38,402 bases of DNA. Origin: Deltaproteobacteria bacterium (GTDB lineage Bacteria > Desulfobacterota > Desulfobulbia > Desulfobulbales > Desulfurivibrionaceae). Below the pieces are notes generated by a model. That model was not told the origin of the DNA, made no database searches, and worked only from the letters and a program-made list of their open reading frames with translations. This document shows, in pieces, positions 10,261 through 15,909 of this stretch (position 1 is the first letter of the stretch; every line of letters begins with the position of its first letter). The stretch spans positions 1 through 38,402 of the forward strand of contig JAJZRF010000030.1 of the NCBI GenBank assembly GCA_021847425.1, read 5' to 3'. A program made the position numbers and the translations under genes.

Positions 10261-10527
10261 ATGAGTCGATTTAGAAAGCTATCACAAACAATCTGGCATT
10301 GCCAATATCATGTTGTAGGGGTACCCAAATACAGGTTTCGGATACTGACAGGCGAGATCGCCGAAGAGGTATCAAGATGTATCAGGGTGTTTTCGGAACG
10401 AGCGGAAGTAGAAGTGGTTGAGTTGAGCATCGGGGGCAAGGGGGATGTTGTCCCCGGCATAGGGGTGACCAAAGCCAAGAAGCCAATCCGCCCCAAAAGC
10501 CGCCGGTCCCGAATGCCAGTAGTTTAA
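10261..10527 (+). pseudogene. tnpA: Truncated IS200-type transposase TnpA (Y1 HUH family)
   Basis: The first 60 or so residues are typical IS200 TnpA: SRFRKLSQTIWHCQYHVVGV, PKYRFRILTGE and IRVFSERAEVEVVEL. At the place of the HUH metal-binding motif (normally DHVHLL) the frame reads GDVVPG, and from there similarity ends; the rest (GVTKAKKPIRPKSRRS) is unrelated low-complexity sequence running up to the convergent chrA gene. Full-length TnpA is about 130-150 residues and needs the HUH pair and a later tyrosine, all missing here. It cannot be active. Confidence 0.85.
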
Positions 10528-10542
10528 GCGACGGAGGGGGCA

Positions 10543-11058
10543 TCAATATACCAGCGCCCCTGCTACTCCGGCCCCCAGGATGATAAGCGTCGGGTCTGCC
10601 TTGGTAAAGGCAATGATCGCGAAGCTGCCCAATGCGATTGCTCCTGTCGGGATGTCCACAATGGAGGTCTTGCCCAGGGTTATTGCCACCGCCGCGAGCA
10701 GGCCGATTACGGCCGGCCTGATGCCCTTGAAACTCGCATTGACTATCCAGGAGTTCTTGAACTGCAGGTAATAGTGGCTGATGATCGTCACAATGACGAT
10801 CGAGGGCAGATAGGTGCAGACGGCAGCGCCCAGCGCGCCCCAAAATCCGAAGATTTTATAGCCGATAAATACGTTCATGATGGTCAACGGCCCCGGCGTG
10901 ACCTGACCGATGGCGACGCTGTCGATGAATTCCTTGCTGGTGAGCCAGTGATAATGGTCGACGATTTCGCGTTGCAGGAGCGGCAGCATGACGAAGCCGC
11001 CACCGATCGTAAAGAGATTGATATACAAAAGCGCCCAGAAGAATTTCAGGATTTCCAC
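10543..11058 (-). CDS. Chromate transporter, short ChrA-type subunit (second half)
   Basis: 171 residues of the CHR family (half-size). Family motifs are NLFTIGGGFVMLPLLQREIV, the region SKEFIDSVAIGQVTPGPL and GYKIFGFWGALGAAVCTYLP; four to six hydrophobic segments follow. Half-size CHR proteins are encoded in pairs with opposite membrane topology and together correspond to one full-length ChrA, exporting chromate and probably other oxyanions. The GTG at 11058 follows GGAGGAGG. It overlaps the end of the partner gene by 13 bases. The assigned family is sure; chromate as substrate is by family only. Confidence 0.88.
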   Translation of the reverse strand: MEILKFFWALLYINLFTIGGGFVMLPLLQREIVDHYHWLTSKEFIDSVAIGQVTPGPLTIMNVFIGYKIFGFWGALGAAVCTYLPSIVIVTIISHYYLQFKNSWIVNASFKGIRPAVIGLLAAVAITLGKTSIVDIPTGAIALGSFAIIAFTKADPTLIILGAGVAGALVY

Positions 11059-11603
11059 TCTGTCCTCCTCCCGTGCAAAAATACGCCGGCAAGGGCTGCG
11101 GCAACGATCAGGACAATCGGATTGAACTTGAACACCGCCAGGCATATCAAGGCGGTCAGGGCGAAGGCGATGCTCTGGTAGTCCTTGAGGATTTTTCTGC
11201 TCATGGAGTAGACAACCGAGGCAATAAGCCCGACAACCGCCGCGCCGACCCCTTTCAGGATGGCCTTTAAGAGCGCAATCTCCTTGTACCTGACGTAGAT
11301 AAAAGCGAGGATCAGAATCAGGACAAAGGAGGGAAGGACCTGACCGAGAACCGTGGCAAGCGCGCCCCGCCATTTTCTGAGGGTATAGCCTATGAATATG
11401 CCGGTATTGACAATGGGGGCGCCGGGGGTTAGCTGTCCTATGACGACGCTTTCGGCGAACTCTTCATGGCTGAGCCATTTTCTTTTGTGCACGAGTTCCC
11501 GCTCAAAAAAGGCGAGCATGGAATACACTCCGCCAAAGGCAAAGGCGCCCATCTTAAGAAAGACCGTAAAGATGTCTTTTGCTTTCACCTTTGGGGAAGA
11601 CAT
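11046..11603 (-). CDS. Chromate transporter, short ChrA-type subunit (first half)
   Basis: 185 residues, CHR family: FLKMGAFAFGGVYSMLAFFE near the N-terminus, then SHEEFAESVVIGQLTPGAPI and GYTLRKWRGALATVLGQVLP. Half-size partner of the gene at 10543-11058. The ATG at 11603 (AAGGAAAA before it) overlaps the stop of the Fe-S protein gene as TGATG, so translation of the three genes is chained. The frame is open further up, but that stretch is the Fe-S gene in another frame. The PGAP in place of the usual PGP of the paralogues is a small difference in the conserved loop. Confidence 0.88.
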   Translation of the reverse strand: MSSPKVKAKDIFTVFLKMGAFAFGGVYSMLAFFERELVHKRKWLSHEEFAESVVIGQLTPGAPIVNTGIFIGYTLRKWRGALATVLGQVLPSFVLILILAFIYVRYKEIALLKAILKGVGAAVVGLIASVVYSMSRKILKDYQSIAFALTALICLAVFKFNPIVLIVAAALAGVFLHGRRTEWKS

Positions 11604-11827
11604 CAGCGGTTTTCCTTGCTGGAACTGTTTTTTAAGCACGCGTCCACCACCTGGCGGACCTCGGCCAGGCATCAGCGGCCGGCGGGGTTTTTCTCCGCGC
11701 ATCGGCATCGGCCGCCTTTCTTCTCCGAGACAATGCGCTCCATGATCAACGAACGGCCGTGTTCCAGGACGTCCTGCTGTAAATCCTCTTCGCTGTAACC
11801 AAAACAGTAACAAATCAGGCGTGGCAT
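11603..11827 (-). CDS. Predicted Sec-containing [2Fe-2S] protein, CopZ-N/BFD-like (Sec52 at TGA 11674-11672)
   Basis: Read on the minus strand from the ATG at 11827 (GGAGGG before it), the frame gives a 74-residue protein if one TGA is read as Sec. Cysteines are at 6 and 8 (LICYCFGYSEEDL), 41 and 43 (RCRCAEKNPAGR), then Sec52-Cys53 (UCLAEVRQVV). This matches the [2Fe-2S] domain of CopZ-type proteins, in which the NPxG motif is followed by CC and a leucine; here the first of the two is Sec. Similarity continues on both sides of the TGA in one frame. The true stop overlaps the chrA start (TGATG). A SECIS-type hairpin follows the TGA. Probable role: redox or metal delivery beside the oxyanion transporter. 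Confidence 0.8.
11642..11659 (-). promoter_or_regulatory. Candidate SECIS element of the Fe-S protein gene
   Basis: On the minus strand GTCCGCC (11659-11653) pairs with GGTGGAC (11648-11642), seven pairs with one G-T, and the loop is AGGT (11652-11649). Nineteen bases separate the TGA from the loop. The loop resembles that of the E. coli fdhF SECIS. A competing hairpin CCTGGC/GCCAGG with GGTC in its loop lies nearer the TGA (8 bases). Confidence 0.7.
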
Positions 11828-11898
11828 GTTAGCCCTCCAATGGGAGATGGTGCAGGCAATGGCGCCGGGCGCGGATATCCCGGCAAGATGATGTTCTT

Positions 11899-11928
11899 TC
11901 TATACCTTTTGGGGAATGACTTTGTCCA
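11899..11928 (-). promoter_or_regulatory. Predicted promoter of the Fe-S/chrA operon
   Basis: On the minus strand TGGACA (11923-11928) and TATAGA (11899-11904) are spaced by 18 bases. This would make the Fe-S protein and two half-size chrA genes an operon of their own, separate from the full-length chrA upstream. Confidence 0.5.
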
Positions 11929-11951
11929 GAGCGGAAGCGCATAGGTTTTTC

Positions 11952-13130
11952 CTAAAAAAGGAAGATGGCCACCGTGCCGCCGGCAAGGACCACCCAGAGG
12001 AGATCGATCTTTTTGAACAAGGCCCCGAAGGCTGCGGCGCCAAGAAGCAGATGGAGCCAGTCCCAGTGGACATGCAGGGCAAGGCGGATGCTGACCGTGC
12101 AGAGCAGGCCGACAAAGGAGCAGAGAACTCCGTCAATGGCCCGATTGAACCAGCAGGAGGCGCGCAGCCTGGCAAAATAGGGGGCGGTGCCGATCACCAG
12201 CAGCAGGGAAGGGAGGAACATGGCCGTCGTGGCGACGAAGGCGCCGGCAAGGCCGTGGAGCAGGTAGCCGACAAAAGTCGCCGTGATCACGATGGGGCCG
12301 GGGGTGAGCTGGCCCAGGGCGATGCCGTCCAGAAAAGTCGGGGCAGCCAGCCAGGCGTGGGTCTCAACGATTTCATGGAACAGGAGGGGCACCGAGGCAA
12401 AGCCGCCGCCAAAGGCCATGAGGTCGACTCTGGTCATGATCAGGGCCAGCTGTGCGAGGCCGGAGCGGAAAAAAACGAGCAGCCCGAAGCCCGCGCCAGC
12501 CGCGGCCAGCAGGAAGAGAAGCGGCAGGGTGGTGGAGGGCATGGGGGTCCGGGGCTCTGTCTGCGGTGGAATTGGTTGCCCGTTGTGCAGCGCCAGGCTC
12601 AGCAGTGCGGCAAGGATCAGAATGAGGACCGGATGCACTGCAAGCCCGAACAACCCCGCCGCCATGAGGGCCACAAGGCCATGTTGCCAGCGGGTAAGGG
12701 AATTCCGGCCAAAGGAGATGGCGGCACTGGCGACAATGGCGACAATAATGGCTTGCAACCCGCTGAAAACCGCAACCACGGCGGGCAGCGAATGCGTACG
12801 GGCGTAAAGAACTGAAAGCAGTGTCATGAGGAGGAAGGCAGGCAGACCGAAGCCAAGATAGCTTGCGATGGCCCCCCGCACTCCTTGGAGCCGCAGGCCG
12901 ACGTAGGCGGCCATCTGCATGGCGGTCGCCCCTGGAATTGTCTGGCAGAGGGCCACGCCATCCCGGAAGGCTTCCTGGTCGAGCCATCGTTTCCGCCCGA
13001 CCGCAAGTTCGCGGATGTGGGCGATCATGGCCGGACCTCCGAAGGCAGTGGTTCCCAGGCGCAGGAAGGAGAAGAACAACCGGCGTGGTGATGGGGGTGG
13101 CAGAAGTGGTTTTTCCTGGACATCTTGCAT
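11952..13130 (-). CDS. chrA: Chromate transporter ChrA, full-length (two-domain)
   Basis: 392 residues with two tandem CHR domains. The first has FLRLGTTAFGGPAMIAHIRE, FRDGVALCQTIPGATAMQMA and GYLG-like turns; the second has RVDLMAFGGGFASVPLLFHEIV, FLDGIALGQLTPGPIVITATF and GYLLHGLAGAF. About ten hydrophobic segments. Long CHR proteins export chromate driven by the membrane potential, lowering its cellular level. The ATG at 13130 follows AAAAGGA; the seven residues before it (from a TTG at 13151) lack such a site. It ends 124 bases from the Fe-S protein gene. Three CHR genes side by side is uncommon. Confidence 0.9.
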   Translation of the reverse strand: MQDVQEKPLLPPPSPRRLFFSFLRLGTTAFGGPAMIAHIRELAVGRKRWLDQEAFRDGVALCQTIPGATAMQMAAYVGLRLQGVRGAIASYLGFGLPAFLLMTLLSVLYARTHSLPAVVAVFSGLQAIIVAIVASAAISFGRNSLTRWQHGLVALMAAGLFGLAVHPVLILILAALLSLALHNGQPIPPQTEPRTPMPSTTLPLLFLLAAAGAGFGLLVFFRSGLAQLALIMTRVDLMAFGGGFASVPLLFHEIVETHAWLAAPTFLDGIALGQLTPGPIVITATFVGYLLHGLAGAFVATTAMFLPSLLLVIGTAPYFARLRASCWFNRAIDGVLCSFVGLLCTVSIRLALHVHWDWLHLLLGAAAFGALFKKIDLLWVVLAGGTVAIFLF

Positions 13131-13208
13131 GTTGCGGGTCCTTTTGCCCAAGAAGATATGGCATGCCGCCCTTTTTTTGGGAAGGATGCGGGGGAATGGC
13201 CGCCTTGC

Positions 13209-15788
13209 TCAACGATGGGGCGGTAAAATCCGGGACAGGGCCAGGGAAAAGTCCGCAAGGGAGACCGGCTTGGCCAGAAATTCGCGGATACCCATGGCCT
13301 TGGCCTTTTCGGCATCCACGCTCTCGCTGAAGCCGGTGGTAAGAATAACCGGCAGCTCGGGCCGGATGGCCAAAATCTTGGCGGCCAGCTGCATGCCGGA
13401 GAGTCCAGGCATGGTCTGATCGGTTACCAGGGCGTCGAAACTTTCCGGGGCAGCGCTGAAGGCGGCAAGAGCCGCGCTGCTGTCGGTAAAGGGTGAAACC
13501 TCGCAGCCGATGGCGGTAAGTTCGTTGATGCCGAGCTGCACCAGCATCTCCTCGTCGTCAACAAAGAGCACCCTGCCGCTGAGCTGGTGGAGGGAATTTC
13601 CGGTTCCCTCGGCCGGTTCCGTTGGCGCTGCTTTCTGGACGATGGGAAAGTAAATGCTGAATTCCGCGCCCTGGCCGGGGCTGCTCCGCACGGTGATGGC
13701 GCCCAGGTTGGCCTTGACAATGCCATGCACCGTGGAAAGACCAAGGCCGGTGCCCTGGCCGATACCCTTGGTGGTAAAGTAGGGCTCAAAGATCCGGGTC
13801 TGGGTGAGGCTGTCCATTCCCTGCCCGGTATCCCGGACAATGAGCCGCGCCTGCGGTCCGGCCTGCAGTCCGGAAACAGTCTTGGCAAAGACATGGTCGA
13901 GAGCCACCTCTTCCAGCTCGATCTCAAGGGTGCCGCCGCTGTCAAGCATGGCATACCGGGCATTGGCGCAAAGATTCATGATCACCTGATGGATATGCGT
14001 GGGATTGGCAAGGACAGGGCCGCATTGGCCGTTGATTCTCTGATGAACGGTGATGGTGGCCGGCAGGGTGCTGCGCAGAAAGGCCAGGGACTCCTTGATC
14101 AGGGGTTGCAGGAGCAGGGGTTGCCGCTGTTGCTCGTTCTTCCGGCTGAAGGTGAGAATCTGCTGTACCAGATCGGCCGCCCGCAGGCCAGCCTTGATGA
14201 TCTGCTGAAGATTTTCCCGCAGCGAGTCCTGCACGCCCTGTTCACGCAGCGAGATCTGGGCATAGCCCAGGATGGCGTTGAGCATGTTGTTGAAATCATG
14301 GGCAATGCCGCCCGCCAGAGTGCCGATGGCCTCCATCTTCTGGGACTGGAGCAGATTTTCCTGGAGCTGCTTCAGTTCGGTCATGTCGTGCAGCACGAGA
14401 ACCTGACCGGCTTTCCCCTGGCTGGCTTTGGAGATCTCGGAAATGGAAGGGATGACGGAATATTCGCGCCCCGATCTGGCAATGAGAATGGGGCAAAGCG
14501 TATTCAGCTGAGCCTGGTCGTAAAACAGCTCGGCAATGTTCTGCGGCATGATCCGTTGCCCTTTGTCGTGGGGATGGACAAGGTGTACTATCTCCTCCAC
14601 GTTGCGGCCGATTGCTTCATCGTTCGGCCAACCCGTCATTTTTTCGGCAATGCTGTTCAAGAGCAAAACCCTGTCCCGTCCGTCCAGGGTGACGATGCCG
14701 TCGCCTATGCTGCGCAGGGTCACGGCAAGCAGCCCTTTTTCCTCCTGGAGCTGTGCATGGAGCTTGTTGAACACCAGGTGGTTGAGCCCGGCCTGGCCCA
14801 GCATTTTTGTGAGCAAAACCAGGAATTCGGCCAGTTTCTCCATCTTGGCCATGGGCATGCGCGTTTGTTTCTTGAGGGCGGCAAGGTAGGCGTCCGGCTC
14901 CAGGCCGATATCCTCGGCAAAGGCGCGGAAACGGTTTTCGTCGTCTTCGCCGTCGATCATGACCTGGCCCAAGGCCCAGGTACCCAACCGCTTGCCTTCG
15001 ATAACAATCGGGGCGACAGCATCCATCAGTCCGGCGCTGATGCATTGCCGGGTGGAGGGTTTGTTCTCCAGCGCAGACTGCAACAGCCGTTCGTCCGACT
15101 GGAGGCATCTGGCCAGACCTTCCTCCCTGCCCCTGACCATGAGGCAGGATTCGGAAAAATTATAAACATCGGTCACCATCTCCATCCGCTCGTCGAAGAT
15201 GGCGGAGGTTATGCCGTGGATTTCGGCAAAGACGGAAACCATCCGTTCCAGGTCGGCAAGATTGAAAATATCCCGCAGCCCGGCGTTGCGAATTGTCTCC
15301 CTGAGGAGTTGTTGCGGGTTTTCCTCCTGGCGGGCGAGGGGATCGCCACCGAGGTCCGGCGCTCGTGTTTGCAGGAAAATGAGGGTGCCTGCGATCTTCC
15401 CTTCCTTGATAAAGGGACGGGCTTCAAAAAAAAAGGTCAGCTCCGGACCCTGCTTGGGCTGCAGCGTGACCCGGTGGTTGACATTGCGTTGGGGGGAGTG
15501 GATGATTCGGTTGATGGGGCAGCGGTCCAGGCAGCCAGCGCCCCGGCCGAACAGTTCGAAGCATTTTCGTCCCAGCGCCTCGCTGTTTGAAAAGCCCAGT
15601 AGCTGTTCCGTCTGGCTGTTAAGGAAGAGAAGATTTTGTTCCGGATCAATGAGGTAAACGGCCTCGCGCATCAGGTTGAGGATGTTCGCCTCGTCGGCGC
15701 TTATATGATATGTCCGGTGATCAGGCATGGCGAAAAAGGATCGTGATGGTAAAGAGGGCAGGTGCCGGGTAGGAGTTTTCTTTACCAT
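13209..15788 (-). CDS. Hybrid sensor histidine kinase (PAS-PocR-PAS-HisKA-HATPase-REC)
   Basis: About 860 residues, no membrane segment, so cytoplasmic. Domains in order: PAS (about 30-145, with CPINRII and following Cys); PocR sensory domain (about 170-345: [45 protein letters not shown]); PAS (about 350-470); HisKA with [18 protein letters not shown]; HATPase with [16 protein letters not shown] and [11 protein letters not shown]; receiver with VDDEEML, acceptor Asp in [11 protein letters not shown] and Lys in LAKPV. PocR domains are known to bind small ligands such as hydrocarbon derivatives. The start is uncertain (ATG 15788, TTG 15794 or ATG 15728). No separate response regulator is adjacent; the membrane kinase upstream is on the same strand. 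Confidence 0.9.
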
Positions 15789-15909
15789 ATTCAAAACAAA
15801 ATCAACATGTTTTTCCGTCTTGATGGCACTGGGCTGGGAGCGGATTTTTTCGTCATCCCTGGGAGGTGGAGGAGAATTGAGCCGGGCAGGGACCAGTTAG
15901 GGGGCATGT

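Follow-up and report, generated by a model that had tools for sequence, protein, structure and literature searches.

Why should a bacterium build selenocysteine (Sec) into a small, probably iron-sulfur protein and place its gene immediately in front of two transporter genes of the chromate family? The question is raised by the window, a stretch of 38,402 nucleotides (contig JAJZRF010000030.1) from a bacterium related to the sulfur-cycling Desulfobulbaceae. A sequence-only reading of this DNA had proposed a Sec-containing CopZ-N/BFD-like protein, in which the conserved CC after NPxG reads TGA-Cys, coupled to two half-size CHR transporters. The features concerned are collected in Table 1.

Table 1. 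Features at and around the Sec gene; positions are those of the window
Feature	Position	Strand	Description
Sec gene	11603..11827	-	74 aa; UGA at 11674-11672 read as Sec52; BFD/CopZ-N-like, cluster presumed
SECIS-type hairpin	11642..11659	-	7-bp stem, AGGU loop, inside coding sequence; position and pairing conserved across 154 distinct sequences
chrN, half-size CHR (chromate transporter family)	11046..11603	-	185 aa; PF02417 3e-49
chrC, half-size CHR	10543..11058	-	171 aa; PF02417 3.3e-47; GTG start overlapping chrN end
Full-length two-domain ChrA-like transporter	11952..13151	-	PF02417 in two stretches, 1.8e-79; TIGR00937 3e-91
Promoter-like motif TGGACAAA-N-GGTATAG	11900..11928	-	Conserved, upstream of Sec gene
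IS200-like transposase fragment	10261..10470	+	PF01797 2e-8, profile positions 2-48 of 121; adjoins 3' end of chrC

Translated with TGA as U, the Sec gene reads MPRLICYCFGYSEEDLQQDVLEHGRSLIMERIVSEKKGGRCRCAEKNPAGRUCLAEVRQVVDACLKNSSSKENR and ends in a TGA stop; the in-frame TGA is codon 52 and is followed by Cys53, inside NPAGRUC (GRUC). A TGA stands at this codon in 163 of 165 distinct homologous loci and a Cys codon in the other two (one TGT, one TGC); Cys43 and Cys53 are kept in all 165, Cys41 in 164 (Ser in L250), and Cys6 and Cys8 in 163 each (the losses being truncated rows, two and one, and Gly8 in L238), positions 52 and 53 being fixed in these counts by the rule that selected the loci. 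Among 57 aligned homologs C6, C8, S26, C41, C43, N47, P48, U52 and C53 are invariant. The sequence-only reading had allowed that Cys homologs might lack a residue at the TGA, or that the part beyond it might be unconserved; both Cys-form homologs align a Cys to the TGA, and the region 3' of it is strongly conserved. The proposal of a CC motif read as TGA-Cys is thus upheld by the translation and by the recurrence of the TGA. No export signal is visible by eye in the Sec protein, which is presumably cytosolic.

The loci were gathered starting from the window's protein, so the sample leans to its phylum. The 165 are those that remain after merging duplicates and leaving out, by the position rule, L115, whose domain is interrupted by an insertion, and the partial L239, each of which has the TGA. 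L117-L121, L234-L237 and L240-L246, being broken, partial or distant, do not enter the codon and neighbour counts; L122 is the window locus again; L179, L181, L228 and L230 do not match the regular expression of one hairpin comparison and are included in the 165-locus codon count and in later counts. Single-linkage clustering at 70% reduces the 165 loci to 59 clusters, with 88 loci in one of them. The Sec protein is matched at E <= 0.001 in 67 of 116 relatives searched, and there are matches in 84 of 395 genomes drawn from the phylum, the weaker of which include other families, such as long ORFs aligned over the first half only. In some relatives the Sec gene is incomplete or looks degraded (L117, L118, L119, L120).

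The hairpin of 7 bp with an AGGT loop 19 bases past the TGA is present as first described: it starts 12 nt after the TGA, with GTCCGCC as one arm and GGTGGAC as the other, and the loop begins after 19 nt. A single-sequence fold of the region is unremarkable against shuffles (z -0.30), and an Rfam search over 11500-12000 at E up to 10 gives four matches only, all far below gathering scores. Comparison across homologs is more informative. In 154 distinct 36-mers, 999 of 1078 stem cells are paired, whereas redrawing synonymous codons by family usage gives 703.5 +/- 12.3 and the stricter control, in which synonymous codons are shuffled within columns, gives 967.6 +/- 2.6, with 0 of 1000 shuffles reaching 999. 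The full seven-pair stem is possible in 85 of the 154 sequences, against means of 4.3 for the redraw and 68.0 for the within-column shuffle; none of the 1000 shuffles equalled either the observed cell value or the full-stem value. Sliding the stem partner lowers pairing to 30-63%. L149 has its outermost and sixth pairs altered on both sides with the stem retained, L080 and L095 pair GTTAACC with GGTTAAC, and the loop is AGGT, GGGT or GTGT in 136 of the 154 sequences. The window's genome also has a tRNA-Sec above the gathering score and encodes SelA, SelB and SelD, the SelD gene (G000:C81:11093-12016) itself having an in-frame TGA. Three marks of a bacterial selenoprotein gene are present, namely a UGA aligned with Cys, a SECIS hairpin and the genomic machinery for Sec, and these comparisons confirm what was first observed in the window's ORF. 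A reading of the TGA as a plain stop is ruled out by its conservation (163 of 165 loci) and by the SECIS pairing.

Downstream, the stop of the Sec gene overlaps the start of chrN (TGATG) and a second half-size CHR gene follows, both as had been proposed, with PF02417 found once in each. Directly upstream lies a gene that the sequence-only reading did not include, a full-length chrA (13151-11952) on the same strand, which ends 124 nt before the Sec gene; here PF02417 is found twice, and all CHR matches, this one included, are above the cut-off. The arrangement resembles the half-size pairs of the CHR family and differs in that the first half gene overlaps a selenoprotein gene. Full-length chrA is also found beside the Sec gene in L053, L058, L062, L063, L064 and L169, with fragments in L168. 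A hybrid histidine kinase with PocR, PAS and receiver domains is encoded upstream of full-length chrA on the same strand (13212-15794, -).

Upstream of the Sec gene, the motif at 11900-11928 looks like a separate promoter for the Sec gene and permease. Of 14 same-genus loci, 10 have its loose form (nine the strict form) in the 200 nt that precede the Sec gene, with 0 occurrences elsewhere in 2.63 Mb of strand searched; a stock sigma-70 promoter scan did not report it.

The partnership with CHR holds for the window's genome and fails as the typical arrangement. A TauE/SafE permease (PF01925) lies directly behind the Sec gene in 13 of 13 other same-genus genomes that have it. The close tie of selenoprotein to permease, also part of the sequence-only reading, is by contrast borne out, since the Sec gene and tauE share the TGATG overlap in 12 of these 13 loci, as the Sec gene and chrN do in the window. 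Seventeen genomes of the genus were searched: in 13 the Sec gene adjoins TauE, three lack both, and in the window's genome the Sec gene is accompanied by the CHR pair, so that the gene and one or other permease are both present or both absent in 17 of 17. No TauE is found at E <= 1e-60 in the window's genome, which is 81% complete. TauE of this subfamily occurs in 63 of 116 relatives; it is next to the Sec gene in 13 genomes of the window's genus and in six of genus g25, and in 0 of 44 other TauE carriers.

Judged by these gene orders, the CHR pair in the window is a local replacement of TauE. The likely route can be seen in L063 (genome G111, of another family), where tauE is interrupted by a CHR pair, its residues 1-27 and 283-318 flanking the insert. 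The window's chrN and chrC proteins are 91% and 94% identical to their L063 counterparts. The pair looks like a recently moved cassette, because the CHR block is more alike in DNA between the two loci (89.7% over 1051 bp) than are the flanking upstream chrA (75.7%) and Sec gene (74.0%). Matches to chrN at E <= 1e-40 occur in five of 116 relatives, and only the window's and that of G111 lie beside the Sec gene; the other three do not. CHR as the ancestral partner, and as the rule for the family, is ruled out by the TauE of the 13 genus relatives and by the tauE remnants in L063. The locus offers a natural permease swap, from TauE to CHR, behind one conserved translational junction.

A wider view of what these permeases may serve comes from the neighbours of the 165 loci. 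These were classed by tblastn searches, with Pfam and NCBIfam used to name the seeds, for ten families (ChrA, TauE, ArsP, ArsC, ArsE, ArsG, MerT, MerC, MerP and MerA); the classes derive from the seeds alone, with 118 singleton up- or downstream ORFs left out. At least one of the ten lies within 1.5 kb on the same strand in 69 of the 165 loci (ChrA 8, TauE 28, ArsP 22, ArsC 21, ArsE 13, ArsG 5, MerT 9, MerA 7, MerP 5, MerC 2). In the other 96 the seed search finds none of them on the same strand, some of these loci being on short contigs. Where at least 4.5 kb is available on both sides (69 loci, either strand counted), a family gene is found within 1.5 kb in 37 and at 2.5-4.5 kb in 3. The neighbour-positive loci are confined to 17 of the 59 sequence clusters, and TauE to a single cluster. 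Gene orders include arsR-arsP-Sec-arsE (L145), arsP-Sec-tauE-arsE (L225), arsP-arsC-Sec (L068) and merR-merT-merP-Sec (L264). The frequent occurrence of relatives in arsenic and mercury detoxification gene clusters suggests that the Sec protein is a selenium-based helper for expelling toxic elements. To go by the families named, the common thread of the neighbouring genes is the export of soft or oxidising toxicants; the names TauE and CHR do not fix what is moved.

The Cys relatives are found in similar company. It had been asked whether Cys homologs also precede chrA, and they do not: both Cys-form homologs (L232, L233) are in mer clusters. Among 18 plasmid matches, eight Cys relatives were examined; seven are annotated at the site, six of them with mer genes and the seventh with an ArsR/cation-transporter pair. 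The CopZ-family proteins of plasmid mer operons (Stanieria, Deinococcus, Peribacillus, Methylomonas), which have mercury-resistance neighbours, align with the Sec protein in their BFD part, with the pattern CxC ... CxC ... NPxGxCC. They differ in their length of 150-153 aa, in an N-terminal Cys-rich part and in having Cys rather than Sec, and no CHR or TauE gene is annotated within 4 kb on either side of them. In a distant BFD subfamily of the NPRGRUCSREI type (L240-L246, some 3-4 kb into each locus), the equivalent codon is again an in-frame TGA. Six of these seven loci have ars genes on the fetched stretch, and in L245 and L246 the candidate Sec gene lies between ars genes. With both lineages counted, a TGA turns up twice at this codon in BFD genes within or close to ars operons, which could mean that Sec was selected there on two occasions.

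What kind of protein is placed in these operons? The nearest NCBIfam models are CopZ_Nterm_CC (NF047645; 1.5e-14, 54.4 bits of a cut-off of 100) and CopZ_Nterm_CU (NF045877; 8.1e-8, 32.4 of 190), both below cut-off and both matched in part, over profile positions 86-137 of 138 and 97-160 of 161 respectively, the Sec protein being without the N-terminal part. No Pfam family matches it at E 0.001, and a search of the window's genome with PF04324 (Fer2_BFD) finds another gene and not this one. A phmmer alignment to the N-terminal domain of Archaeoglobus fulgidus CopZ (AfCopZ, 2hu9) at E 0.01 places C75 and C77 on C6 and C8, C109 on C43, C118 on U52 and C119 on C53. The pattern CxC ... C ... NPxGRCC is common to the two proteins. 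An AlphaFold (AF2) model from 57 sequences has a mean pLDDT of 88.6. With this model Foldseek ranks the CopZ domain first (E 0.45), with Bfd taking the next two places; TM values normalised by query length are 0.53-0.58, and the E values, 0.45 to 1.6, are weak. Together the nearest models and the AfCopZ alignment support the assignment to a CopZ-N/BFD-type domain that the sequence-only reading had made.

The archaeal protein has Cys where the window's protein has Sec, and it has an extra N-terminal part, which we take to be a zinc domain; in full-length CopZ the whole N-terminal domain is presumably joined to a domain that binds copper. Its cluster ligand in the CC motif is, we assume, C119 and not C118. 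On the strength of the alignment and of this presumed AfCopZ ligand, the [2Fe-2S] ligands of the Sec protein are most likely C6, C8, C43 and C53, which are kept in 15 of 15 rows of an alignment that includes distant homologs.

These observations can be joined in a mechanism. A BFD/CopZ-N-type [2Fe-2S] cluster would be held by C6, C8, C43 and C53, with Sec52 beside the fourth ligand, and the protein would serve operons for the export of toxic metal(loid)s or oxyanions. The selenol of Sec52 may be redox-active or may bind soft metals, perhaps in partnership with Cys41, which is nearly invariant, and it may take electrons from the neighbouring cluster or pass electrons to it. The pairing with Cys41 is a guess, and AfCopZ has no Cys aligned to Cys41 yet keeps the CC. 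The Sec protein would thereby reduce or capture the toxicant, or recharge a partner reductase such as ArsC, and the co-translated permease would then export the toxicant. That permease would be interchangeable: TauE/SafE in the window's genus, the CHR pair in the window, ArsP with ArsC/ArsE in ars clusters and MerT/MerP in mer clusters. Stated generally, as a Sec-dependent [2Fe-2S] redox or metal-handling adaptor for the efflux of toxic metal(loid)s or anions through interchangeable permeases, this proposal has about an even chance of being right. A bolder form can be offered tentatively, in which a widespread selenium-dependent efflux adaptor uses its [2Fe-2S] cluster and a selenol/selenenylsulfide (Sec52, Cys41) to reduce arsenic, mercury, chromate or sulfur oxyanions, or to present them to the operon's own permease, with permeases swapped behind the same stop-start junction.

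The alternative that survives best, though it is unlikely, is a selenol metallochaperone, in which Sec52-Cys53 and Cys41 would bind a soft ion (As(III), Hg(II) or Cu(I)) and hand it to a pump, the cluster being structural or tuning affinity. The nearest named families are CopZ N-terminal metallochaperones, the Cys relatives sit with merR, merT, merF and merP, and MerP/HMA proteins immediately adjoin the Sec gene in L249, L264 and L267. However, both CHR and TauE belong among the anion permeases, and it is not obvious what a cation chaperone would do next to them. Moreover, the Sec protein is without the extra N-terminal part of the CopZ_Nterm models and, at 74 aa, is without an HMA copper domain.

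It is more doubtful still that the protein is a general electron carrier, a Bfd-like ferredoxin using Sec for fast electron transfer, with the efflux genes as passengers or as genes co-regulated under stress. The weak BFD matches among the top structural hits, and the 96 of 165 loci where recognised metal genes are wanting, would fit such a role. A passenger relationship does not readily account for the contrast between near and far neighbours (37 against 3 of 69 loci), for a TGATG coupling kept across two permease types, or for the finding that the gene and either TauE or the CHR pair are jointly present or jointly absent in all 17 genus genomes.

The coupling itself could have another purpose. 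The UGA might tie translation of the coupled permease to selenium supply, the peptide's own activity being secondary; such a switch could make use of the stop-start overlap seen in the genus, as a ribosome that terminated at the UGA would still be 69 nt away from where the permease gene begins. This is improbable, since the Sec protein is conserved in many loci that lack the overlap (128 of 162 loci with enough flank show neither stop-start overlap form), and an AAGGA sequence precedes the chrN start, so that independent initiation is possible.

The least probable alternative, that Sec52 itself ligates the [2Fe-2S] cluster, has in its favour that the CC motif adjoins the presumed cluster and that selenolate ligation is chemically possible, but at position 52 L236 has Ser and L237 has Gly (both are weak homologs, at E 5.5e-5 and 2.1e-4) though C6, C8, C43 and C53 remain there, and U52 aligns to AfCopZ C118, the neighbour of C119. 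Because these weak, distant homologs keep the four Cys, Sec52 is probably a non-ligand neighbour of the presumed cluster, beside the fourth ligand. The sequence-only reading had left two roles for Sec, replacement of a cluster ligand or a redox-active neighbour, and the second fits better. The protein would thus be a natural case of Sec next to, and not in, an iron-sulfur cluster.

Some close counterparts of the Sec protein are on record. The table of a 2026 review (PMC13188914) includes a (2Fe-2S)-binding protein (copper chaperone CopZ family) form 1, with cd10141, GxUC and WP_245779778.1, and the same CopZ-family selenoprotein entry is found in PMC9312934. The window's protein has the same domain label and the same G-x-U-C motif as the PMC13188914 entry, which is given in that table without function or operon context. 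Judged by label and motif as tabulated, the family of the Sec gene is probably this catalogued GxUC selenoprotein and is not new. The main text of PMC2398784, the source cited for the GxUC entry, does not contain 2Fe-2S, copper chaperone, CopZ or cd10141, and a keyword search of the searchable text of the deep-Sep paper (PMC12013277) gave no match for the protein. The NCBIfam family NF045877 (CopZ_Nterm_CU, Csac_0668 family (seleno)protein) is likewise a 2Fe-2S domain of the CopZ N-terminal kind whose CC motif includes Sec; by its name Sec comes second there (CU), whereas in the window's protein it comes first (UC). Among the matches listed in full-text literature, a scope that leaves most subscription journals outside, no paper places the Sec protein in ars, mer, chr or tauE operons. 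Within the reach of these searches, what is new is the setting in operons, the replacement of the permease and the evidence for a non-ligand Sec.

Sulfate reducers and their kin matter for the cycling of arsenic and mercury. The neighbour evidence gives the GxUC selenoprotein a testable job in them, the selenium-dependent handling of toxic metal(loid)s or anions.

Elsewhere in the window, a fluoride riboswitch (RF01734, 65.2 bits) at 1515-1577 on the + strand lies directly 5' of an enolase gene, a position that suggests fluoride-responsive enolase expression.
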